64,000 nt of DNA from contig NZ_CP128540.1 of the NCBI RefSeq assembly GCF_021283545.2, forward strand, positions 4,499,501 to 4,563,500. Direction: 5' to 3'. Under the pieces are notes generated by a model. The model ran no database searches, was not told the origin of the DNA, and worked only from the letters and a program-made list of their open reading frames with translations. Shown here in pieces: positions 10,540 to 47,110 of the stretch. Made by a program: the position numbers and the translations under genes. The DNA is from Pseudomonas alloputida (GTDB lineage Bacteria; Pseudomonadota; Gammaproteobacteria; Pseudomonadales; Pseudomonadaceae). The first letter of the stretch is position 1. Every line of letters starts with the position of its first letter.

Positions 10540-11608
10540 ACTGGCCTGGCCGTGGGTCTTCGCCCTGTTGCCGCTGCCATGGCTGGCGCGCCTGCTGCTG
10601 CCCGCTGCCGACAGTGGTGAACCGGTGCTCAAGGTGGGTTTCCTCAACGAGCTGGAAGGCCTGGCCGGGCGCCGCGCAAGGCTCAACCTGCCCACCTGGC
10701 GCCAGCAGGCACCGTTCGTCGTCATCTGGCTGTTGCTGCTGTGCGCCGCCGCTCGCCCGCAATGGCTGGGCGAACCGGTGCCGATCGCCGCCAGCGGCCG
10801 CGACCTGCTGGTGGCGGTGGACGTGTCCGGGTCGATGGACTTCCCCGACATGCAGTGGCAGAACGAGGACATCAGCCGCCTCGACCTGGTCAAGGCGCTG
10901 ATGGGCGACTTCCTGCAAGACCGTGAAGGCGACCGCGTGGGCCTGATCCTGTTCGGCAGCCAGGCCTACCTGCAGGCGCCGCTCACCTTTGACCGGCGCA
11001 CCGTGCGCACCTTCCTCATCGAGGCGCAGATCGGCATCGCAGGCAAGAACACCGCCATCGGCGACGCCATTGGCCTGGCGGTCAAACGCCTGCGCGAACG
11101 CCCGGCACAAAGCCGGGTGCTGGTGCTGATCACGGACGGCGCCAACAACGGCGGGCAGATTCACCCGCTGACAGCCGCCCGCCTGGCGGCCCAGGAAGGC
11201 GTGCGCATCTACACCATCGGTATCGGCGCCAACCCCGAAGCCAGTGGCACCCCAGGCCTGCTCGGCCTCAACCCGAGCCTGGACCTGGACGAAGCCGCGC
11301 TCAAGGAAATTGCCGACATCACCCACGGCGCCTACTTCCGTGCCCATGACGGCGCCGAACTGGACGCTATCGGCGATACCCTCGACCAGCTGGAGCCAGT
11401 AGCCCAGCAACCGACCCAGGCGCGCACAGCCCAGGCCCTGTACGCCTGGCCGCTGGCGCTGGCGCTGCTGCTCAGCGTGCTGCTGGTGGTGGCCGTGCAG
11501 TGGCCCGACAACCTGTTGCAGCGCCTGCTGCGCAAGCCGCGCTTCCTGCAGCCGCACCCGGAATGGCGCCAGCGCTTGAAGCGCCTGCGTTTAAGGAGAC
11601 GGCGATGA
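10532..11608 (+). CDS. BatA-like von Willebrand factor A membrane protein
   Basis: A 358-aa protein with two N-terminal hydrophobic segments, a vWA domain and a C-terminal helix (LYAWPLALALLLSVLLVVAV) with a very basic tail. The MIDAS metal site is intact: LVAVDVSGSMDFPD (about residues 94-107), and further along LITDGANNGG. This is the BatA type of the aerotolerance operon, with the vWA domain facing the periplasm between membrane helices. It is presumed to bind a partner through its metal site under MoxR control. It overlaps the next gene by ATGA at 11605-11608. Confidence 0.88.
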   Translation: MFELAWPWVFALLPLPWLARLLLPAADSGEPVLKVGFLNELEGLAGRRARLNLPTWRQQAPFVVIWLLLLCAAARPQWLGEPVPIAASGRDLLVAVDVSGSMDFPDMQWQNEDISRLDLVKALMGDFLQDREGDRVGLILFGSQAYLQAPLTFDRRTVRTFLIEAQIGIAGKNTAIGDAIGLAVKRLRERPAQSRVLVLITDGANNGGQIHPLTAARLAAQEGVRIYTIGIGANPEASGTPGLLGLNPSLDLDEAALKEIADITHGAYFRAHDGAELDAIGDTLDQLEPVAQQPTQARTAQALYAWPLALALLLSVLLVVAVQWPDNLLQRLLRKPRFLQPHPEWRQRLKRLRLRRRR

Positions 11609-13323
11609 TCGACTTGTGGCCCCAATGGCTGCGCCCGCTCTGGCTGCTGGCGGTTCCCGTGCTCGGCTGGCTGCTGTACAAACTGTGGCACCGGCGCAAG
11701 CGCGCCGGGCGCTGGCAGATGATTCTGCCGCCAGCCTTCCACGGTGTACTGCTGGGTGGCGGCAGCGGCAGCACCAGCAAACTGCCGTGGGTGGCGCTGG
11801 GCCTTGCCTGGTTACTGGTGATCCTGGCGCTGCTCGGGCCCAGCTGGCAGCGGCTGGAAGAAAGCCGTCAGCGCCCGGCCGACCCGCTGGTGATCCTGCT
11901 CGAACTGACCCCGCAAATGCTCGCCGAGGACAGCCCGCCCAACCGCCTGGAACAGGCCCGGCGCAAGATCCTCGACCTGCTTGAACACCGCCGCGACAGC
12001 CAGACGGCGCTGGTGGTGTATGCCGGCTCCGCGCACACCCTGGTGCCGCTGTCCGACGACCTGGCCACCACCCGCAATTTGCTCGAGGCCATCGACCCGT
12101 CGATCATGCCCAAACCCGGCCAGCGTGCCGACCTGGCCGTGCAAAAAGGCCTGGCGCTCCTGGCCCAGAGCGGCCTCGGCCAAGGCCGCCTGCTGCTGGT
12201 AGGCTCAGCGCTCAGCGCCGCCGAGCGCCAGGGCATCACCCAGGCCCTCGGCCGCCAGGGCCCAAGCCTGCTGATGCTGGGCATCGGCAGCCGCGAAGGC
12301 GCCCCGGTGCGCCAGGCCAATGGCGAATACCTTAAAGACGACCAGGGCGGCATCCTCTTGCCTCGCCTGGACAGCGCCAGCCTGAAGGGTTTTATCAGCG
12401 GCACGGGCGGGCGCTACCGGCACGCCCGCATCGACGACCTCGACCTGCGTGGCCTGGGCCTGTTCGACAACCCGCGGAGCGGGCGCAATGACGGCCAGAC
12501 CCTGCAACTGGACAGCTGGGCCGACCAAGGTTACTGGCTGCTGATTCCGTTGTTGCTGCTGGCCGCCTGCGCCGGCCGGCGCGGCTGGCTGTTCTGCCTG
12601 CCGCTACTGCTGGCCTTGCCGCAGCCTGGCCAGGCTTTCGAGCTCAACGACCTGTGGCTGCGCCCCGACCAGCAAGGCCAGAAGCTGCTGGAGCAAAACC
12701 GCCCGGCCAGCGCTGCGCGTCACTTCCAGAACCCGCAATGGCGCGGCATGGCCCTGTACCAGGCCGGCGACTATGCCGGTGCCGCCGAGGCATTTTCCCA
12801 AGGCGACACTGCAGCAGCCCACTACAATCGAGGCAATGCCCTGGCCCGCAGTGGCGAGCTGGAAGCCGCCCTGGATGCCTACGAGCAAGCCCTGGAGCGT
12901 CAGCCCGACCTGCAGGCCGCGCTGGACAACCAGGCGCTGGTGCAGCAACTGCTGCAACAACGTGAAGCCAAGGCCGAGGAACAACCGCCCGGCAGCGATG
13001 CCCAAGACACGCCCGGCAGCGAAACCGAAGGCAACAGCAGCTCGGCCAGCAGCCCGGCCCAAGGCACACCCGGCGACGACCAACAGGCCAGCCCCGAACA
13101 ACCCGGCGAAAGCAGCAGCAACAGCCAGGCCGCCCCCGGCAACCAGGCCGGGAGCGACGACAGTGTCATCCAGCCGCCACAGCGCCCGGTGTCGACCAGC
13201 CTCGACGGCGAACAGCGCCAAGCCCTGGAGCAATGGCTGCGGGAAATCCCCGACAACCCGGCAGAGCTGCTGCGACGCAAATTCTGGTATGAACAGCAAT
13301 TGCATCAGGAAAAATCACAATGA
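11605..13323 (+). CDS. BatB/BatC-type fusion: vWA membrane protein with TPR repeats
   Basis: A 572-aa protein starting at ATG 11605 behind AAGGAG. Order: two N-terminal membrane helices, a vWA domain, a third helix pair (WLLIPLLLLAACAGRRGWLF), then a TPR region around residues 370-460 (ALYQAGDYAGAAEAFSQGD, HYNRGNALARSGELEAALDA) and a Ser/Gln/Asn/Pro-rich low-complexity linker of about 70 residues. It combines the BatB and BatC roles of other bacteria. The MIDAS position reads VILLELTPQMLAED instead of DxSxS, so metal binding of the usual kind is probably lost, unlike BatA before it. Confidence 0.86.
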   Translation: MIDLWPQWLRPLWLLAVPVLGWLLYKLWHRRKRAGRWQMILPPAFHGVLLGGGSGSTSKLPWVALGLAWLLVILALLGPSWQRLEESRQRPADPLVILLELTPQMLAEDSPPNRLEQARRKILDLLEHRRDSQTALVVYAGSAHTLVPLSDDLATTRNLLEAIDPSIMPKPGQRADLAVQKGLALLAQSGLGQGRLLLVGSALSAAERQGITQALGRQGPSLLMLGIGSREGAPVRQANGEYLKDDQGGILLPRLDSASLKGFISGTGGRYRHARIDDLDLRGLGLFDNPRSGRNDGQTLQLDSWADQGYWLLIPLLLLAACAGRRGWLFCLPLLLALPQPGQAFELNDLWLRPDQQGQKLLEQNRPASAARHFQNPQWRGMALYQAGDYAGAAEAFSQGDTAAAHYNRGNALARSGELEAALDAYEQALERQPDLQAALDNQALVQQLLQQREAKAEEQPPGSDAQDTPGSETEGNSSSASSPAQGTPGDDQQASPEQPGESSSNSQAAPGNQAGSDDSVIQPPQRPVSTSLDGEQRQALEQWLREIPDNPAELLRRKFWYEQQLHQEKSQ

Positions 13324-14951
13324 GTCGCTTCGGCGTCTTTCTCCTCACCCTGCTGTGGGCCGTGCTGGCCCAGGCCGAACCGCTGCTGCAGGCCAGCGTC
13401 GACCGCACCCGCCTGGAAGCTGGCGAAAGCCTGGAACTGACCCTGGAAAGCCAGGACGTCACCCAGTTCGGCAAGCCCGACCTGCGCGCCCTGGAAGGTG
13501 ACTTCGAAGTGCGCGGCACGCGACAGCTGAACAGCCTGCACACCCTGGACGGCGAAACCCGTGCCAGCACCCGCTGGATCATTACCCTGCTGCCACGGCG
13601 CAGCGGTACCCTGCGCATCCCCGAGCTGCGGCTGGGCCAGTCGCACAGCCAGGCCATCGAACTGCAAGTGCTGCAGGCCGATGCCAACCGCCAGGACAAC
13701 GCTCAGGTATTCATCGAAGCCACCCTCGACAGCCACGACGTCTATGTCCAGGCCCAAGCCGTGCTGACCCTGCGCATCTACCACTCGGTAGCGCTGTACG
13801 ACGACAGCAGCCTCAGCTCCCTGCAACTGGAGAACGCCAAGGTCGAGCCGTTGGGCGAGTCGCGCACGTATGAAAAGGAAATCAACGGCGTGCGTCATGG
13901 CGTGATCGAAACCCGCTATGCGGTGTATGCCCAGCAAAGTGGCACCCTCGACATCCCGTCGCTGACGTTCACCGCCACGGCAGCTGCCAGCAGCGACGAA
14001 GCAGCGCAGGCCAATGGCACGGCCCGCGCCGGCCACCAGGTGCAGGTCAGCTCGCTGCCCTTGCGCCTCACGGTACGGCCGATTCCGGCAGCCTGGCCGG
14101 CTGGCTTGCCGTGGTTGCCAGCCAGCAGCCTGACCCTGGAAGAGCACTGGAGCCCGGACCCCGGCAGCCAGCAGGTACAGATTGGCGACTCGCTGACGCG
14201 CAACATCACCTTGCGTGCCGAAGGCTTGTCCAGCACCCAACTGCCGCCGCTGCCGGCTACGGAGATCATCGGCCTGCGCCGTTACCCTGACCAGCCGCTG
14301 CTGCGCAACGAAATCAGCGAACGGGGCATGACCGCCAACCGCGAAGAGCGCGAGGCCCTGGTGCCGACCCACAGCGGCACGCTGGCGTTGCCGGCGCTGG
14401 AAGTGGCCTGGTGGAACACCCGCGAAGACCACCTGGAGCACAGCAGCCTGCCGGCGCGCACGCTGAACGTGCTGGACAACCCGGCACTGAGCGCCGACAC
14501 CCCGGTGGGCGACAACAGCAGCGCCAGCACCCTGCTGTGGCCCTGGCAGCTGTCCACACTGGTGTTTGCCCTGACCACCGTGCTGGGCTTTGCCCTGTGG
14601 TGGCGCGCCCGTTCGCGGCCAGCGGTGCTGCGCACGGCGCAGAACGGGCCAAGCCCACGCACCTTGCTGGACGACCTCAAGCGCGCATGCCAGGCCAACG
14701 ACCCCCAGGCTACGCGCCAGGCGCTGGATGCCTGGGCCCGGCAGCAACCGGAAACCCTGGCCGAGATGGCGGCGCGCTTCGTGCCGTTGTCGGATGCGCT
14801 GGATGGTTTGAACGGGGCGTTGTACAGCGAGAGCGGGCAGTATTGGCAGGGGGAGGATTTGTGGCGGGCGATTGGTACCATTCCGCCAGCTGAGCAGGTG
14901 TTGCTGCCGGCGGGCGAGAACGGCAGCTTGCCGCCGCTCTATCCCAAGTAA
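13320..14951 (+). CDS. BatD-like (oxygen-tolerance) protein
   Basis: A 543-aa exported protein: signal peptide MSRFGVFLLTLLWAVLAQA, several beta-rich domains with the BatD start (LLQASVDRTRLEAGESLELT), one transmembrane helix near residue 410 (LSTLVFALTTVLGFALWW), and a cytoplasmic tail of about 110 residues. BatD is the last constant member of the MoxR/Bat operon and presumably the periplasmic part of the complex. It overlaps the BatB/TPR stop (ATGA at 13320-13323). The operon ends here; a REP pair follows. Confidence 0.86.
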   Translation: MSRFGVFLLTLLWAVLAQAEPLLQASVDRTRLEAGESLELTLESQDVTQFGKPDLRALEGDFEVRGTRQLNSLHTLDGETRASTRWIITLLPRRSGTLRIPELRLGQSHSQAIELQVLQADANRQDNAQVFIEATLDSHDVYVQAQAVLTLRIYHSVALYDDSSLSSLQLENAKVEPLGESRTYEKEINGVRHGVIETRYAVYAQQSGTLDIPSLTFTATAAASSDEAAQANGTARAGHQVQVSSLPLRLTVRPIPAAWPAGLPWLPASSLTLEEHWSPDPGSQQVQIGDSLTRNITLRAEGLSSTQLPPLPATEIIGLRRYPDQPLLRNEISERGMTANREEREALVPTHSGTLALPALEVAWWNTREDHLEHSSLPARTLNVLDNPALSADTPVGDNSSASTLLWPWQLSTLVFALTTVLGFALWWRARSRPAVLRTAQNGPSPRTLLDDLKRACQANDPQATRQALDAWARQQPETLAEMAARFVPLSDALDGLNGALYSESGQYWQGEDLWRAIGTIPPAEQVLLPAGENGSLPPLYPK

Positions 14952-14960
14952 GTGGTTGCC

Positions 14961-15064
14961 TGTGCGGGCCTCTTCGCGGGCATGCCCGCTCCCACTGACC
15001 GCGTACGCCGAGAACCTTGCGCCGTACCTGTGGGAGCGGGCGTGCCCGCGAACACCGGCGCAGC
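14961..15064. repeat. REP pair (inverted, BIME-like)
   Basis: Two copies of the P. putida-type REP core face each other: one near 14966-14995 (CTTCGCGGGCATGCCCGCTC) and one near 15030-15060 (GTGGGAGCGGGCGTGCCCGC). They lie just behind the MoxR/Bat operon. REP pairs usually sit at 3' ends and can stabilise mRNA or bind gyrase. Confidence 0.85.
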
Positions 15065-15190
15065 TACCACCGTAAGATATTTCTGAACCTGCAACCCAAT
15101 GCTTCAGAATCAACCCGCTTAGGAATTACCCTACGCGCGCTGCCGAACTATCGCTGTTGTCGGGGAAACACCTCACGGATAACGTTTCCG

Positions 15191-15348
15191 GGTCGCTTCG
15201 GTGACCGGGTGTGAGAACCCGACAGAGATTTTACGCAGCACCTCTAATGGCGGCCGTACGTGGGCAGGCTTCGGCCTGGCCGAGTCATTGCGTATTTCTC
15301 CTCGGTTTCTCACCCCGCGTACGGCTGCCACCCTCGATCCGTGAGAAA
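15191..15348 (+). promoter_or_regulatory. Structured 5' leader RNA of the DUF3077 gene (unrecognised family)
   Basis: Read by eye, the leader contains: hairpin P0 15191-15196/15201-15206 with a UUCG tetraloop; a 16-bp helix P1 15249-15264/15314-15329 (two G-U pairs); inside it hairpin P2 15265-15269/15274-15278, again with UUCG; and hairpin P3 15280-15284/15301-15305. The junction strand 15306-15313 (TTTCTCAC) can pair with GTGAGAA at 15211-15217 as a pseudoknot or with GTGAGAAA at 15341-15348, not both at once. The amount of matched pairing is far above what is expected for an intergenic stretch. No known riboswitch class was recognised. It may control translation of the gene 41 bp downstream. 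Confidence 0.6.
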
Positions 15349-15389
15349 GATTCAGGTGGCAGTGCCCTTCTGTTTCAGAGGAATACGCC

Positions 15390-15656
15390 ATGAAGAAGAT
15401 CGTCCCCGATCCTCCTGCAATCCTGACAGCCCGCCCCTTCTACACCATCAACCAGGACACGCCTTCGGTTGACGCCCTGACCCACACCCTCCAGTTGATG
15501 GCCGGCATCGAAGACTCGCTGGACGAATACATCTGCGCCAATGCCGGTGAACCCGGTATCAACATGCTGGTCAACGCAGTGCATCACGTGCAGATGACCA
15601 GAGCGCTGGCCGAGTTGCTGCTACACCGGCAGACCGGGGAAATCACCCTGCGCTGA
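15390..15656 (+). CDS. DUF3077 domain small protein
   Basis: An 88-aa protein starting MKKIVPDPPAILTARPFYT, with a good ribosome site (AGAGG). It matches the DUF3077 small-protein family, which in Pseudomonas occurs in several copies per genome. The central part (ALTHTLQLMAGIEDSLDEY) and the end (MTRALAELLLHRQTGEI) are amphipathic helices; there is no signal peptide, membrane helix or catalytic motif. The function is unknown. It is a single-gene unit between REP elements with an elaborate leader, suggesting post-transcriptional control. Confidence 0.75.
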   Translation: MKKIVPDPPAILTARPFYTINQDTPSVDALTHTLQLMAGIEDSLDEYICANAGEPGINMLVNAVHHVQMTRALAELLLHRQTGEITLR

Positions 15657-15666
15657 TTGCAGCCTT

Positions 15667-15787
15667 TGTAGGAGCGGCCTTGTGTCGCGATCGGGGTGCG
15701 AAGCGCCCCCAGGGTCTTCGCATCACAGCCAAATCGCCGGGCCATGTTGCGGCCCTCTGCGACCGGTCCGGCAAGGCAGCTCCCACA
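15667..15787. repeat. REP-type repeat, second family
   Basis: The unit starts TGTAGGAGCGGCCTTGTGTC and ends, inverted, with GGCAGCTCCCACA. It contains an inner hairpin GGGGTGC-GAA-GCGCCCC. This is the other common P. putida intergenic repeat, here between the DUF3077 gene and the converging RHS-tip gene. Confidence 0.7.
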
Positions 15788-15820
15788 ATGAACCGAACCG
15801 CAAACCCTTGATGATCGTGC

Positions 15821-16474
15821 TTAAAACCATTCTGCTTTACGCAGCCGTGAAGCCGACTGAGCGGGCTGCTCTGCGACTGCCTCGGTTGGCCCTGGCTTGG
15901 GCGGGAAGGGATCGTTCGGATTCAGAAGCGCGTCGATCATTGGCGTTGCACTGGATGCATCACCTTGTGGACCGCTCAGCAGTGGTTTGAGGCTCCTTTT
16001 ATCCTGCCTGGATGCCAATTCACTGATCAAAAGCATTTGTTGCTCGTGCAACGCGTAATGCGTTCTCTTGGACTTCGAAATCATACTGTCGACCATTTGC
16101 GAACCTAGTGTGTTGTACCGTTCAACCAACTGATCTGTAGTTAGCTGCTGAACTTTCTTCACGGAGACTGGCTTGATCCGCACGGGTCGCCGTGAAAGAG
16201 CATTTCTCTCGAACCCATGCCCACTTGGATCCTGCCGATTAACAGGATCATTCGAACAAAAGGCGTAGCTGTTCACCCCACCCTCACCAAACGGGCTGAA
16301 GCTGTCCGCCGACAGAAAGCGCATCAGAGCCGGGCTGAATGCACGATACCCGTTGCCCAATAGGTAACTCGTCAACTCAACGGCCAGCCGTTCGCCGTTG
16401 AAACCGAGTAGCGTGCTTTTCGATGGCCGCTTGGAGTACCCGTATGCTGTATAGACCTGTGCCAAGGTCGCCAT
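15821..16474 (-). CDS. Orphan RHS repeat-associated core/tip protein
   Basis: A 217-aa protein with no upstream RHS shell. The first 80 residues hold the RHS core signature: GYSKRPSKSTLLGFNGERL, then YLLGNGYRAFSPALMRFLSA and SYAFCSNDPVNRQDPSGHG. In full RHS toxins this core closes the shell and is followed by a variable toxin tip. Here the tip is about 130 residues (from GFERNALSRRPVRI to the C-terminus), highly polar, with no motif I recognise. The start MATLAQVYTAYGY looks like the middle of an RHS strand. The region is A/T-richer than its neighbours, in line with transfer. No cognate immunity gene is seen. It may be a displaced tip cassette or a small stand-alone protein. Confidence 0.72.
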   Translation of the reverse strand: MATLAQVYTAYGYSKRPSKSTLLGFNGERLAVELTSYLLGNGYRAFSPALMRFLSADSFSPFGEGGVNSYAFCSNDPVNRQDPSGHGFERNALSRRPVRIKPVSVKKVQQLTTDQLVERYNTLGSQMVDSMISKSKRTHYALHEQQMLLISELASRQDKRSLKPLLSGPQGDASSATPMIDALLNPNDPFPPKPGPTEAVAEQPAQSASRLRKAEWF

Positions 16475-17152
16475 CGCCTAGCCTCATACAAGTGAGCCAG
16501 TTGTAGTTTGCTCGAACACAATTTTTCCGCCGCAATCAACGGCGAGACAACTGACAAAAATGCCAGGCAAGCGTGGTCCATGTGGGAGCGGGCGCGCCCG
16601 CGAACACCGGCGCAGCCGGTGCCATGCACCGCGTTGGATTCTTCGCGGGCACGCCCGCTCCCACAGGGTCCCTGCTAAATCAGTAAGTGATGCGCAGTTC
16701 TATGAGAGATCACCCAGCCCTTCCGGGCTGCGCTGTCGCACAGCAAACAGGATGCGCATGACGTCAGATCTGCACTGACATCGAGATCTAGAAAAGCATT
16801 CGCCGACTGATCCGGGTAGGTCAGCCGCCGAATACTTTGCTATGGTTCCCAATGCGCGGGAAAGAGGCCGTAGACCGCACTGGTGTGCTGCTTTGCTCCC
16901 GAATGAGAGAGTGGCCCAAATGGCATCGGCGTTAATCCCTGTCGGCACAGCTTGCTGTGACCACGTATAGAAGAGTGAACACTTCGCCGCCATTGACCCC
17001 GCGCGCCTGTTTTTTTCGCTAGAAAGAACAGTGGGTTATCTTTTGTTTGATAGAAGCTGGCTTGCCCGCGATCGGGCCGCACAGCGGCCCCACGCTTGGG
17101 TTACCATACCGCCCTTTCCCCGCTTGCCCGACTCGACACCAACAGGTCATCC
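16475..17152. other. Gene-free 678-bp stretch: REP pair plus unexplained sequence
   Basis: A REP pair occupies 16581-16666. From about 16680 to 17060 the DNA is unlike its surroundings (lower GC, short overlapping reading frames on the minus strand). Frames there (for example YTWSQQAVPTGINADAIWAT) remind me of short spurious ORFs annotated in other P. putida genomes, which suggests a dispersed repeat rather than a gene. 17060-17152 leads into sbcD and ends in the ribosome site AACAGG. Confidence 0.5.
16581..16666. repeat. REP pair (inverted)
   Basis: GTGGGAGCGGGCGCGCCCGC near 16582 faces TTCGCGGGCACGCCCGCTCC near 16642, with a short hairpin (CACCGGCGCAGCCGGTG) between them. Same REP family as 14961-15064. 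Confidence 0.85.
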
Positions 17153-18391
17153 ATGCGTCTGTTTCATACCTCCGACTGGCACCTGGGCCAAAGCCTGCAC
17201 GGCCAGGAACGCGACTTCGAACACGCCTGCTTCCTCGACTGGCTGCTCGGCCAACTGCGCCTGCGCCAGCCGGATGCGCTGCTGATTGCGGGCGACATCT
17301 TCGACACCGTCAACCCGCCCGTCAAAGCCCAGGAACGCCTCTACGACTTCATCGTCCAGGCCCACGAGCAACAGCCCAAGCTGGACATCGTGATGATTGC
17401 CGGCAACCACGACTCCGGTTCGCGCATCGAGCTGCCGGCCGCACTCATGCGCCGCCTGCGCACCCATGCGTTGGGCCGTGTGCACTGGCTGGACGAGGGC
17501 CAGCTGGATGCCGAACGCCTGTTGATTCCGCTGACCAACGGCCGTGGCAAGGTGGCCGCCTGGTGCCTGGCCCTGCCGTTCCTGCGCCCGGCCGAAGTGA
17601 CCGGCCCGCAGCTGGGTGACGACTACCTGCAAGGCATCACCCAGGTGCATCAGCAACTGATCGCCGCCGCCCTGAAGAAACGCAAGAAAGACCAGGCGCT
17701 GATCGCCATCAGCCACGCGCACATGGCCGGTGGCGCGGTATCGGAAGACTCCGAACGCAGCCTGATCATCGGCAACGCCGAGGCGCTGCCGGCCAAGCTG
17801 TTCGACAAGGCTATCAGCTACGTCGCCCTGGGCCATCTGCACAAGCCGCAGAAGGTCAACCGCGAAGAGCGCATCCGCTACAGCGGCTCGCCAATCCCGC
17901 TGTCGTTCGCCGAAATCAACTACCCGCACCAGGTCCTGGAAGTGGAGTTGGACGGTAACGGCCTGGTCAGCGTCGAGCCACGCCCCGTACCACGCGCCGT
18001 GGCCCTGCAACGGGTGGGCCCGGCACCGCTGGGCGAGCTGTTGCAGCAACTGGCCGACCTGCCCGTGGTCGACCTGCTTGAAGACCCCAACCGCCAGCCC
18101 TGGCTGGAGGTGCGGGTGTTGCTCGACGAGCCGCAACCCGACCTGCGCCAGCAGATCGAAACCGCGCTTGAAGGCAAGGCGGTACGGCTGATTCGTATCA
18201 GCGCCGAGTACGCCGGCCGCAACAACGCCGAAGACGATGACCTGGCCTTTGTCGAACTGGCCCAGATGACCCCGCAAGACCTGTTCAGCCGCGCCTGGGA
18301 ACAAGCCTACGGCAACCCCGCCGACGATCAGGCGCTGGCCGACTTCGCCCTGCTGTTGCAGGACGTGCAGCAGGAAGAGGAACAGCCATGA
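17153..18391 (+). CDS. sbcD: Exonuclease SbcCD, subunit D
   Basis: A 412-aa Mre11-type nuclease. Phosphoesterase motifs appear in order: HTSDWHLGQ (residues 5-13), AGDIFDTVNPP (about 45), IAGNHDSGSR (84-87 NHD) and a late ISHAHMAGG and ALGHLHKPQ. These bind two Mn ions and cleave DNA ends and hairpins. It works with the SbcC ATPase, whose gene follows with an ATGA overlap (18388-18391), to open hairpins at palindromes and trim blocked ends. The start is ATG 17153, preceded by AACAGG; the length is typical of the family (E. coli about 400). Confidence 0.95.
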   Translation: MRLFHTSDWHLGQSLHGQERDFEHACFLDWLLGQLRLRQPDALLIAGDIFDTVNPPVKAQERLYDFIVQAHEQQPKLDIVMIAGNHDSGSRIELPAALMRRLRTHALGRVHWLDEGQLDAERLLIPLTNGRGKVAAWCLALPFLRPAEVTGPQLGDDYLQGITQVHQQLIAAALKKRKKDQALIAISHAHMAGGAVSEDSERSLIIGNAEALPAKLFDKAISYVALGHLHKPQKVNREERIRYSGSPIPLSFAEINYPHQVLEVELDGNGLVSVEPRPVPRAVALQRVGPAPLGELLQQLADLPVVDLLEDPNRQPWLEVRVLLDEPQPDLRQQIETALEGKAVRLIRISAEYAGRNNAEDDDLAFVELAQMTPQDLFSRAWEQAYGNPADDQALADFALLLQDVQQEEEQP

Positions 18392-21300
18392 AGATTCTCG
18401 CCATCCGCCTGAAGAACCTGGCATCGCTGGCCGGCCCGATCGACATCGATTTCACCGCAGAACCCTTGGCCAGCGCTGGCCTGTTCGCCATCACCGGGCC
18501 TACCGGTGCCGGCAAGAGCACCCTGCTTGACGCCCTGTGCCTGGCGCTGTTCGGCACCGTGCCGCGCCTCAATGCCATTGGCCGTGAGGCCAAGGTGCCG
18601 GATGCCGACGGCGACATCCCCACCTCCGACCCGCGCAACCTGCTGCGCCGTGGCACCGGCAGCGGTTTTGCCGAGGTCGATTTCGTCGGCATCGACGGCC
18701 GCCGCTACCGCGCCCGCTGGGAAGCCAACCGCGCCCGCGACAAGGCCAACGGCAAACTGCAGCACAGCCGTCAAAGCTTCTACGACCTCGACAGCGAGCA
18801 AGTGCTCGGCAGTGGCAAGAACGAATACAAGCAACTGGTCGAAGCCCGTCTGGGCCTGAACTTCGAACAGTTCACCCGTGCGGTGATGCTGGCCCAGAGC
18901 GAGTTCGGCGCGTTCCTCAAGGCCGACGACAAAGACCGTAGCGAGTTGCTGGAAAAGCTCACCAACACCGCGATCTACACCCGCCTGGGCCAGCGTGCCT
19001 TCAGCAAGGCGCGCGAAGCCGGCGAGGCGCACAACGCCCTGAAAGAACGCGCCAGCCATCTACTGCCGATGGCTGCCGAGGCCCGTGCCGAGCTCGACCA
19101 GCGCCTGGAGCAGGCGCAACAGCAGTTCAAGGCCGACCAGGCCGGCGAGCGCCAGCTGGAGCAGCAACGCAACTGGCTGAATGAACAACGCCAGCTTCAG
19201 GCCCAACACACCGAAGCCGGCACCACGCTGCAGGCCGCCGAACTGGACTGGCAACAGCTGGCCGAACCACGCCTGGACCTGGCACGCCTGGAGCGCCTGG
19301 CCCCACAGCGTCACCAGTTCCACCGCCGACAGGCCCTGAGCGCACAGCTGGCGCCAGTGGCCGCGAAAATTGCCGAACAGCAACAGCAGCAAGCCGAACT
19401 GCAGGTGCGCACCCGCGAACTCGAACAGGCGCTGGACACTGCGCGCCAAGCGCTTGCCGACCGCCAGGCCGAGCACGGCGAGAATGCGCCGCGCCTGCGC
19501 CAGGCCTTTGCCGCTCAGGATACGCTGGCACGCCTGGACCAGGAGCTGGCCGCCCAGCGCAGCATCAGCCAGCAGGCGCAACAGCAGGTTGCTGACGGCC
19601 AGCAGCAACTGCAGCAGCTGGAAGACAACCAGCAGCGCAGCGTGCAACAACTGGCGCTGATCGACACCGCGCTTGCCGACAGCCAGCACCTGGCGGGCCT
19701 GGCCAATGCCTGGCACGCCTACCTGCCGCAACTGAAGCAGGTGATGCTGATCGGTGGCCGGCTGACCAAGGGCCGAGAAGAGCTACCCGGCCTGCAGGCC
19801 CAGGCCAGCCAGGCCAATGCGCGCTTGCAGGCCGAGCGCGACGCCTACGACCTGTTGTTCCGTGAAGCCAAGGCCGAACCCCAGGCCCTGGCCGAGCAGA
19901 TCGACCTGCTCGGCGGCATGTTGCAGGACAACCGCAAACAGCAGCGCGCCGTAGAGGAAATGTCACGCCTGCACGGCCGTGAACAGGAGCTGCGCCAGCA
20001 GCTGGATGCCCTGCGCGAACGGCAGCAGCAGGCCATGCTGCAACGCCAGCAACTGATTACCGAAGGCACCGCCGCCAAGGCCGAGCTGGAGGCCGCCGAA
20101 CAGGCGTTGACGCTCACCCGTCAACTGCTGGAACGCCAACGCCTGGCACGCAACACCAGCGTCGAAGAACTGCGTAACCAACTGCGTGACGGCGAACCCT
20201 GCCCGGTCTGTGGCAGCGCCGAACACCCCTTCCATCAGCCAGAAGCGCTGCTGCAGAGCCTGGGCCGCCATGACCAGGCCGAAGAGCACGCCGCCCAGAA
20301 GCAGGTCGAGACGCTCAACAGCAAGCTGGTGGAGCTGCGTACCCAGCTGGGTGTGGTCAATGCCCAGCTCAAGGACTTCCAGCAACAGCAGCAGCGACTG
20401 GGCGAACAGTTGCAACCGCTGGTGGCTCAGGTACAGGCACACAGCCTGTGGCCAGCCCTCGCCCCGCAGGACGACAAGGCCCGTAGCGCCTGGCTCGACA
20501 GCCAGCTGCGTCGCCTGGATGAAGAAATCAGCCAGGACGAGAAACGCCAGAGCGCCCTGCTCGCCCTGCAACGGGACGCGGCCCGCCTCAACCAGCAATT
20601 GCAGGCTGCCCACGACGCCCAACAACAGGCCCAGCGCCACCTGGAGCAACAGCACCAAGCCCTGGCCAACGACGAGCAGCTGTTGCAGCAAGGCCTGAAC
20701 GACCTGGCCGGCGTACTACCAGAGGAAGCGCTCAAGGCCCTCAACGACGACCCGGCCAATGCCTTCCTCGCCCTCGACCAGCAGATTGCCCAGCGCCTGC
20801 AGCAACTGGAACAGCGCAAGGACGAACTGGAAGAGCAGCAAGCCCGCCAAACCCAGCTGGACAAGCTGCGTGACCAACAGCAGGCGCGCGTGCAAGGCCA
20901 GCAGCAGTTACAGCAGAAACTGGCCGCCCTCGACGAGCAACGCCAGCAAGCCCTGGCCTCACTCGCCGAACTGCTCGGCGAACATGCCAGCGCCGAAGCC
21001 TGGCAGCAGCACATGGACACCGCGCTGGAGCACGCCCGCACCCTTGACGCCGACACCGCCCAGCGCCTGCAAGATCTGCGCACCCAAGGCGTGCAACTGG
21101 CCAGCGAGCTCAAGGCCAATACCCAGCAACAACAGGCACTGGATGCCGAATGCCAACAGTTGCAGGCCCAGATCGCCCAGTGGCGCAGCGAGCATCCGGA
21201 ACTGGACGATGCCGGCCTCGATCGCCTGCTGGCCATGGATGACGCGCAAGTCAATGAATTGCGCCAGCGTTTGCAAGGCGCGGAAAAAGCCATCGAGCAG

Positions 21301-46498: not shown

Positions 46499-46575
46499 TG
46501 GCGCAGCGGACGGGACTCGAACCCGCGACCCCCGGCGTGACAGGCCGGTATTCTAACCGACTGAACTACCGCTGC
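46499..46575 (-). tRNA. tRNA-Asp (GTC), copy 1
   Basis: A 77-nt cloverleaf with a 7-bp acceptor stem (GCAGCGG/CCGCTGC), D arm TAGTTCAGTCGGTTAGAA, anticodon loop CTGTCAC (GTC) and T arm GGGTTCGAGTCCC. CCA is encoded. Identical by eye to the two copies upstream. Confidence 0.97.
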
Positions 46576-46646
46576 GTATCATTCAGGCTTGCGCCCGATT
46601 GAAACCTGGGTCTACCCTTCCGGCGCGATGGCCTCAGGGCAGGCAC

Positions 46647-46671
46647 AAAAAAAGCGATAACGCGATCGCTT
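46647..46671 (-). terminator. Intrinsic terminator between tRNA-Asp copies
   Basis: On the minus strand AAGCGAT-CGCGTT-ATCGCTT followed by TTTTT. It lies 45 bp after copy 2 and 70 bp before copy 1, so copy 1 may partly depend on read-through or its own promoter. Confidence 0.75.
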
Positions 46672-46716
46672 CTCTTGTGTTTGCTTCAAGGTGTTCTAGG
46701 GACCTTGAAACGAAGA

Positions 46717-46793
46717 TGGCGCAGCGGACGGGACTCGAACCCGCGACCCCCGGCGTGACAGGCCGGTATTCTAACCGACTGAACTACCGCTGC
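46717..46793 (-). tRNA. tRNA-Asp (GTC), copy 2
   Basis: Same 77 bases as copy 1, CCA included. The 3' flank (CAGGCTTGCGCCC side) and the 5' flank also match copy 1, giving a repeat period of 218 bp. Confidence 0.97.
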
Positions 46794-46892
46794 GTATCGT
46801 TCAGGCTTGCGCCCGATTGAAACTGGGATCAGCCCAAGGCATGTGCCTTGTGGCTTCAGACCGGTGCCAGGCACCCATCTGTTACTGAAAAA

Positions 46893-46969
46893 TGGCGCAG
46901 CGGACGGGACTCGAACCCGCGACCCCCGGCGTGACAGGCCGGTATTCTAACCGACTGAACTACCGCTGC
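46893..46969 (-). tRNA. tRNA-Asp (GTC), copy 3
   Basis: Same 77-nt gene with encoded CCA. The flanks differ from those of copies 1 and 2. First tRNA-Asp of the cluster in transcription order, after tRNA-Val. Confidence 0.97.
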
Positions 46970-47034
46970 GCAGTGCGTTCCTCTCTGGCTATCGGCTTCT
47001 TGCGAACCCGAAGCTCCAGGAACATCTCAGGAAG

Positions 47035-47110
47035 TGGTGGGTGATGACGGGATCGAACCGCCGACCCTCTGCTTGTAAGGCAGATGCTCTCCCGGCTGAG
47101 CTAATCACCC
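47035..47110 (-). tRNA. tRNA-Val (TAC)
   Basis: A 76-nt cloverleaf: acceptor GGGTGAT/ATCACCC, anticodon loop CTTACAA (TAC), T arm GGCGGTTCGATCCCGTC, CCA encoded. First gene of the tRNA-Val/Asp/Asp/Asp cluster. Confidence 0.97.

Follow-up and report, generated by a model that had tools for sequence, protein, structure and literature searches.

A chromosomal C4 antisense RNA cassette with a small DUF6124/DUF3077-related gene in Pseudomonas alloputida

The locus and its gene

The window, a stretch of 64,000 nucleotides from the chromosome of Pseudomonas alloputida (contig NZ_CP128540.1), contains a structured leader followed by a gene for an 88-aa protein; VWA/TPR and BatD genes lie on one side of the pair, and a Rhs-like ORF and SbcD/SbcC on the other (Table 1). 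The Rhs-like ORF, located before sbcD on the minus strand (15821-16474), codes for 217 aa with a Rhs-like core that is visible by eye, has no Pfam hit, and appears to be a fragment. REP-like inverted repeats flank the leader and its gene (14968-15050 and 15670-15790), and four consecutive tRNA genes are found elsewhere in the window, also on the minus strand (46502-47110).

The initial annotation called the downstream gene a DUF3077 gene (a gene of this type is mentioned in PMC9630843), but the Pfam DUF3077 model (PF11275) gave no hit to the window protein at E-values up to 10. Pfam and NCBIfam searches as a whole were likewise without a hit up to E 10, and PHROGs returned nothing. Profile–profile comparison with hhalign placed the window family close to two small alignments, one of 6 DUF6124 sequences (probability 99.3) and one of 4 DUF3077 sequences (probability 96.4). 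We found 116 relatives of the gene in genome contigs and kept 80 loci, all titled Pseudomonas. The gene is under purifying selection, with dN/dS between 0.07 and 0.18 in 10 pairs, and residues M1, K2, P6, and P8 are invariant in 59 sequences (alignment A6, for which 61 of the 80 loci were tested and 58 used; L135, L136, and L148 were omitted because stops interrupt their ORFs, and the shorter ones among L131-L210, at contig ends, lie outside it). The protein is predicted to fold into a helical hairpin (pLDDT 86, pTM 0.67). A Foldseek search of the PDB gave nothing at E 0.001, the best match having an E-value of 1.0, and the weak matches to Tsi2 and Vs.4 are no evidence of a relationship.

Table 1. 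Features of the leader and gene (window coordinates)
Feature	Position	Strand	Basis or remark
C4 cassette shared with relatives at unrelated chromosomal places	15071-15650	+	blastn
Possible promoter, TTGTCG - 16 nt - ATAACG	15157-15184	+	by eye, upstream alignment; inferred transcript start ~15190
5′ UUCG hairpin	15191-15206	+	sequence; a similar one in most upstream alignments
a1 target site, GTGAGAA	15211-15217	+	complement of a′; covaries with a′ in 81 leaders
b1 target site	15225-15238	+	4 + 7 bp with b′, internal loop between
C4 antisense RNA	15243-15335	+	Rfam RF01695, 70.3 bits (cut-off 45)
Inferred mature C4 RNA	~15249-15332 (84 nt)	+	homology with P1 c4 coordinates
UUCG hairpin of C4	15265-15278	+	sequence
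Second hairpin (P3)	15279-15306	+	sequence
b′ recognition loop of hairpin P3	15284-15301	+	pairs with b2, more weakly with b1
a′ recognition strand, TTTCTCAC, P3-P1 junction	15306-15313	+	complementary to a1 and a2
a2 target site, GTGAGAAA	15341-15348	+	8-nt complement of a′; 99.3% of cells paired in 81 leaders
b2 target site	15378-15392	+	with b′: 11 bp over Shine-Dalgarno GAGG and 3 bp over ATG
Putatively silenced gene, 88-aa protein MKKIVPDPP...	15390-15656	+	related to DUF6124/DUF3077

A C4 RNA with two recognition arms

All the elements described in the initial annotation (the helix, the hairpins, the junction strand, GTGAGAA, and the 8-nt site downstream of the fold) were recovered where it had placed them. 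The long closing helix joins 15249-15264 with 15314-15329, and the C4 model extends it to 17 pairs (15248-15264 with 15314-15330). The leader folds strongly, as the energy of 231 nt (−97.7 kcal/mol, z −4.12) was equalled by none of 200 shuffles. While the initial annotation had recognized no known family, an Rfam search identified the leader, above the cut-off, as a C4 RNA, and the covariance model matched over its entire length (positions 1-87 of 87). We conclude with high confidence that the chromosome carries here a copy of the C4 antisense RNA of phages P1 and P4. The idea of a new riboswitch or ribosomal-protein leader was rejected, as no such Rfam family was matched either at the gathering cut-off or at E-values up to 1. 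The GG expected at the 5′ end of a processed RNA of ~77 nt that represses in trans is present, although the predicted end reads GGC where most processed C4s have GGT or GGA, which counts against the silencing mechanism proposed below. Across 13 paralogous C4 copies of the same genome the three-way junction P1-P2-P3 covaries, with both sides changed in 12 of the 27 pairs; 97.7% of the cells are paired, and the covariation score was reached by none of 500 shuffles.

Two unpaired parts of the fold carry complementarity to sites outside it. The competing partners of the junction strand (a′), which the initial annotation had pointed out, are the C4 target sites a1 and a2. That annotation had described a′ as the only free junction strand; the loop of P3 (b′) is also free, and it pairs with b2 at the ribosome site. 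Matches of this length are infrequent by chance, since shuffled a′ strands reached the 8-nt match to a2 in 35 and the 7-nt match to a1 in 34 of 5000 trials. For the second arm, the b′/b2 duplex (−17.6 kcal/mol) was matched by 6 of 2000 shuffled loops, and the b′/b1 duplex (−12.5 kcal/mol) by 444 of 2000, so the latter is not significant alone. The Rfam model of the upstream target region, c4-a1b1 (RF03163), scores 25.9 bits at 15179-15225, below its cut-off of 46.7.

The candidate promoter listed in Table 1 was chosen by eye, and a consensus scanner found no sigma-70 site in the window leader. Upstream of it, the conserved stretch 15071-15160 contains a TTCTGAA/TTCAGAA inverted repeat and a ATCCTACG-like box, a box of the same kind being seen in several C4 groups. 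This stretch may be the binding region of a regulator.

Copies, matching sites, and specificity in Pseudomonas

The genome of origin (G000) contains 14 matches to the Rfam C4 model, 13 of them above the cut-off; by eye, the elements are arranged alike in all 14. In 13 of the 14 copies, a′ has a complement over its full length no more than 30 nt downstream, and the 14 copies have 6 different a′ strands and 14 different b′ loops. Furthermore, a C4 is located within 600 nt upstream of 6 of the 7 DUF3077 hits and 2 of the 4 DUF6124 hits of this genome. In the genus, we found a C4 match in 54 of 59 sampled genomes (above the cut-off in 53, none in 5), with 0 to at least 54 copies per genome and a median of 14 when up to 61 candidates were scored per genome; in a sample of the phylum, with up to 10 candidates scored per genome, C4 was present in 62 of 398 genomes and 41 of 212 genera. 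The initial annotation had suspected that the leader may belong to a family, and it does: a conserved, structured RNA family with many copies. Another genome, G049, has 55 copies (52 above the cut-off) with 36 different a′ strands, b′ loops that differ in all 55, and a full-length a2 in 41. Here, C4 precedes 35 of the 41 DUF6124 hits and 5 of the 6 DUF3077 hits within 600 nt, and a DUF6124 or DUF3077 gene comes next after 40 of the 55 copies.

The association also holds when the gene is taken as the starting point. A C4 lies 44-62 nt upstream of the gene match in all 80 fetched loci, and in an independent sample relatives of the window gene were found at 25 places in 14 of 119 genus genomes, with a C4 upstream in 22; L124, one of the three places without it, starts 30 bases from a contig end. 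Other ORFs also follow C4 copies, namely Bro-N/antirepressor-like proteins (2 of 10 proteins scanned), a 52-aa family, and an 89-aa family without hits. Bro-N antirepressor-like proteins occur after C4 at L031 and L084, where there are Pfam hits, and by likeness at L033, L055, and L104; the one at L084 begins with a TPNPP motif of the DUF6124 type. Another arrangement is seen at L146:3853-6721, where three C4 copies lie within 3 kb, and two of them, with different recognition sequences, precede proteins that are 99% identical.

When positions 11400-19700 were compared with 21 loci by blastn, 19 matched from ~15068-15079 to ~15607-15651 (L138 to 15741), some of them also matching short repeats outside these limits, and the two exceptions were L106, which is the locus of the window itself, and L107, which is syntenic with it. 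Queries with BatD, Rhs, and SbcD found matches at these two alone among the 21. Of 25 genus genomes with a BatD match in the stretches covered, 1 had a C4 beside it, that of the window itself, and in 12 of the 24 others the start or a piece of SbcD was found by eye within ~0.8 kb of BatD (380 bases only at L327). In one further genome, G057 (L107), the cassette lies beside BatD, and its start codon looks lost. Because the shared stretch is limited to 15071-15650 and C4 is found at batD in few genomes, we regard the cassette as a sporadic insert between batD and sbcD.

Across 81 leaders, those of the window and the 80 loci, a1, a′, and a2 change together. The a1-a′ cells are 97.2% paired, with both sides changed in 58 (shuffle mean 9.7), and a′-a2, paired as given in Table 1, has 67 such cells (shuffle mean 10.5). 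The commonest a1/a′/a2 triplet, GTGAGAA/TTCTCAC/GTGAGAA, is present in 43 leaders, followed by GTGAGAG/CTCTCAC/GTGAGAG (10), GTGGAAA/TTTCCAC/GTGGAAA (5), GTGGTAA/TTACCAC/GTGGTAA (5), GTGAGAC/GTCTCAC/GTGAGAC (3), and rarer ones, while a few rows are mismatched. Covariation was therefore found at the paired positions and in both alternative pairings; neither its absence nor a loss of the GTGAGAA/TTCTCAC complementarity, which the initial annotation had named as findings that would speak against its proposal, occurred. All the changes in the a-site cells are Watson-Crick, and since none of the 81 leaders has a one-sided (G-U) change there, some constraint at the level of DNA is conceivable. The three sites could in principle act as DNA, each being one copy of an operator to which a repressor protein binds, with a1 and a2 as direct repeats and a′ as the inverted one, a layout that the missing G-U cells would suit. 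We consider this most improbable, as b′ with b1 and b2 provides a second locus-specific complementarity in which b2 sits on the Shine-Dalgarno site, a′ and b′ occupy exactly the unpaired parts of a covarying RNA fold, and the same sites are annotated in P1 as binding sites of the C4 RNA.

The position of b2 points to the ribosome site in general, its median extending from −18 to −7 relative to the start codon and its span overlapping −12 to −7 in 78 of 91 cassettes. Among 86 cassettes, which carry 72 distinct b′ loops and 19 distinct a′ words, the own b2 pairs with a mean energy of −13.9 kcal/mol and those of other cassettes with −8.2 (z −24.0); the own b1 pairs with −12.1 against −9.0 kcal/mol (z −14.9). 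Within genomes (G000, n=14; G049, n=55; the antisense hit L040 and the duplicate rows L077/L078 were left out), the own a1, a2, and b2 beat those of other copies so clearly that none of 2000 permutations was as good, and for b1 between 0 and 9 of 2000 were. Even among ordered pairs of copies sharing the same a′, the own b2 was the better one in 33 of 38 cases in G000 and 79 of 80 in G049. With both arms summed, 11 of 14 RNAs in G000 and 41 of 55 in G049 paired best with their own target; conversely, 11 of 14 targets in G000 and 33 of 55 in G049 paired best with their own RNA, so the separation is strong, yet incomplete. Some of the failures involve apparently decayed copies (L014, L102, L105). 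As the family members carry different recognition sequences, each may silence mainly its own gene.

These data bear on the switch proposed in the initial annotation, in which the junction strand pairs with either a1 or a2 of the same molecule and a ligand or the temperature decides on access to the ribosome site. Its core observation stands, for the strand has two conserved partners that show compensatory changes and compete for it. What we expect from them, however, is an antisense RNA acting in trans and not a signal-driven flipping in cis. A cis switch leaves the cognate second arm, b′ with b2, unexplained over the 86 cassettes, as well as the match to a known trans-acting RNA; besides, no riboswitch family was matched, and a′ sits in a closed three-way junction. 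As the main mechanism we find it very unlikely, while a contribution in cis could accompany the action in trans.

The recognition sequences often differ even between cassettes with closely related proteins. In 85 pairs of cassettes with proteins at least 75% identical (drawn from 60 cassettes, and hence not independent), b′ is shared in 8 and lies at least 5 edits apart in 55, and all 55 of the latter show a better fit of b′ to its own b2, and 54 of the 55 to its own b1. In six pairs picked from the top of the list, the ORF DNA is 93-99% identical, the stretches flanking C4 51-72%, and C4 itself 69-85%; upstream DNA differs too in L184/L185 and L147/L149. The address (b1, b′, and b2) apparently undergoes re-coding or exchange next to a protein that stays conserved. 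L164 illustrates the point: its ORF is nearest to that of L168 (93%), and its leader to those of L134/L132 (91%), where the ORF downstream belongs to another subfamily. After removal of the antisense hits of the independent genus sample, the strong ORF partner lay outside the five best leader partners in only 59 of the 168 cassettes that have such a partner, so in the remaining ones leader and ORF go together or are indistinguishable, which counts against this reading. Discordant identities like those of L164 are to be expected if the address is exchanged as a block; rapid change in single steps could also produce them.

Phage relatives and the proposed silencing

What is known of C4 was established with the phages P1 and P7 and the satellite P4. 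The P1 GenBank record annotates a1, b1, c4, a2, and b2 before icd, in the same order as in the window, and its note on a2 and b2 reads 'repression of icd ant translation'. The Rfam model scores 68.8 bits in P1 and 74.9 in P4, and a covariance model built from the 13 own-genome copies alone finds both. The a′ of P1, CTGTCAA, equals that of the L001 group in this genome, and the a′ and a2 of P4 (TTCTCAC and GTGAGAA) are identical to those of the window. Unlike P1, the window cassette is not in a phage but between batD and a Rhs-like ORF, its gene is neither icd nor ant, and there are many copies per genome. In P4, the CI RNA pairs with the upstream seqA and the downstream seqC and causes transcription termination (PMC4825925); P4 thereby acts before its replication genes, whereas in the window b2 covers the ribosome site from which a small gene would be translated.

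The C4 motif was defined in PMC2864571, and C4 has been reported in Burkholderia and Xylella (PMC4603805, PMC12189769) and, by citation in PMC5320573, in Pseudomonadales. In Acinetobacter baumannii AB5075, PMC5320573 describes ~21 chromosomal Group 1 C4-like sRNAs with a variable recognition loop that are expressed according to RNA-seq, with an apparently RNase P-like processing pattern. In the sections consulted, that account left the targets open, whereas here each C4 has its own a1, b1, a2, and b2 and a gene directly downstream. IsrK of the Salmonella Gifsy-1 antirepressor operon is described as a structural homologue of P4 SeqA (PMC4825925). Matches to isrK (RF01394) just below its cut-off of 50 overlap the a1-b1 region of the cassettes in three of 13 loci scanned, with scores of 48.8 (L023:1603-1689, minus), 43.1 (L052:1602-1690, minus), and 38.2 (L043:1406-1487, plus), and no isrK match is listed in the window (E up to 1) or at L106. 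In several C4 leaders, e.g., L003 and L054, a T-run after a GC-rich repeat lies between b1 and C4, which looks like an attenuator.

As regards mobile elements, no phage or satellite setting, antirepressor, or replication gene lies beside the window cassette as in a phage immunity region. Its DNA matched nothing in 50,697 phage or 72,556 plasmid records by blastn at E 1e-3, and three short, chance-like stretches only at E 10. The window protein had no match in the same 50,697 phage records by tblastn, and a protein alignment search of viral contigs gave no relative of it. A phage origin of this very cassette could not be demonstrated by the phage, plasmid, or viral-contig searches. C4 itself does occur in viral contigs, where 87 stretches match a strict C4 pattern, and scanning 47 of them gave 50 C4 hits, with a full a2 in 47 and a full a1 complement in 48. 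One such contig (L284:950-5230) shows by eye a P4-like order of integrase, AlpA-like ORF, C4, 52-aa ORF, and primase/helicase-like gene; in the genome of the window, an AlpA-like ORF lies directly upstream of the C4 at L003. The occurrence of C4 in phage-like and satellite contexts would suit a decayed prophage remnant whose C4 and gene are functionless leftovers, as would the loss of the gene or a2 in some copies (L014), the apparently absent start codon in L107, and the stops in L135, L136, and L148. Nevertheless, the window gene retains an uninterrupted frame and shows purifying selection, and a1, a′, and a2 stay matched in the 81 leaders, which makes such a remnant unlikely.

Judging from the sequence, it is very probable that the window holds a solitary chromosomal C4 cassette whose processed RNA silences the translation of the adjacent gene in trans. 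Family membership, the conserved structure, the complementarity and covariation of the two arms, the position on the ribosome site, and the conservation of the coding gene are direct observations, from which we infer transcription, processing, and repression at this locus. One transcript would carry a1-b1, the C4 RNA, a2-b2, and the 88-aa gene, and C4 would be excised from it, as P1 C4 is cut at its 5′ end by RNase P. The RNA would then act on further copies of the same messenger, pairing a′ with a2 and b′ with b2, and as the latter duplex covers the Shine-Dalgarno sequence and the start codon, the gene would be kept off. Upstream, binding to a1-b1 may in addition end transcription early, as happens in P4. 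More speculatively, a cassette that arrives in a cell lacking its address would be expressed for a time, until enough C4 has accumulated, and cassettes with a common address would silence one another, so new addresses would be favored.

By analogy with the Bro-N antirepressor-like proteins encoded in some C4 cassettes, and with icd and ant in that of P1, the 88-aa protein may have an anti-repressor or growth-affecting role. A further possibility, which we consider clearly less probable than not, is a module resembling type I toxin-antitoxin systems, whose protein would damage its own cell or act in competition with others once C4 is lost. The targets of P1 C4 likewise include icd, which is annotated as inhibiting cell division, and a small protein kept off by a regulator of the unstable type is a toxin-like layout; against this, there is no hit to a toxin family, nothing was retrieved from the PDB at E 0.001, and the toxin and C4 would come from the same transcript.

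The C4 family is already known; its many-copy, self-targeting, re-codable form is a variant that we did not find described, and a literature search, with most subscription journals outside its reach, returned no account of Pseudomonas C4 cassettes or of address re-coding. Tentatively, and with more doubt than conviction, we propose that Pseudomonas has turned the phage C4 into genome-wide silencing cassettes in which a′ is a group word and b′ is unique to each copy, the address block being swapped by recombination around a constant protein under selection against cross-silencing. If so, the evolution of addresses would resemble the diversification of incompatibility groups, and entry into a cell without the address would give a burst of DUF3077/DUF6124-type protein, while a cell with the address would stay silent. 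C4 would be a large family of chromosomal regulators in Pseudomonas whose targets can be read from the sequence and, as far as the literature searches show, a first handle on the control of DUF3077 and DUF6124 genes. The cassettes would also offer natural sets of related antisense address pairs in which to follow how RNA-RNA specificity evolves when three sites have to change together.
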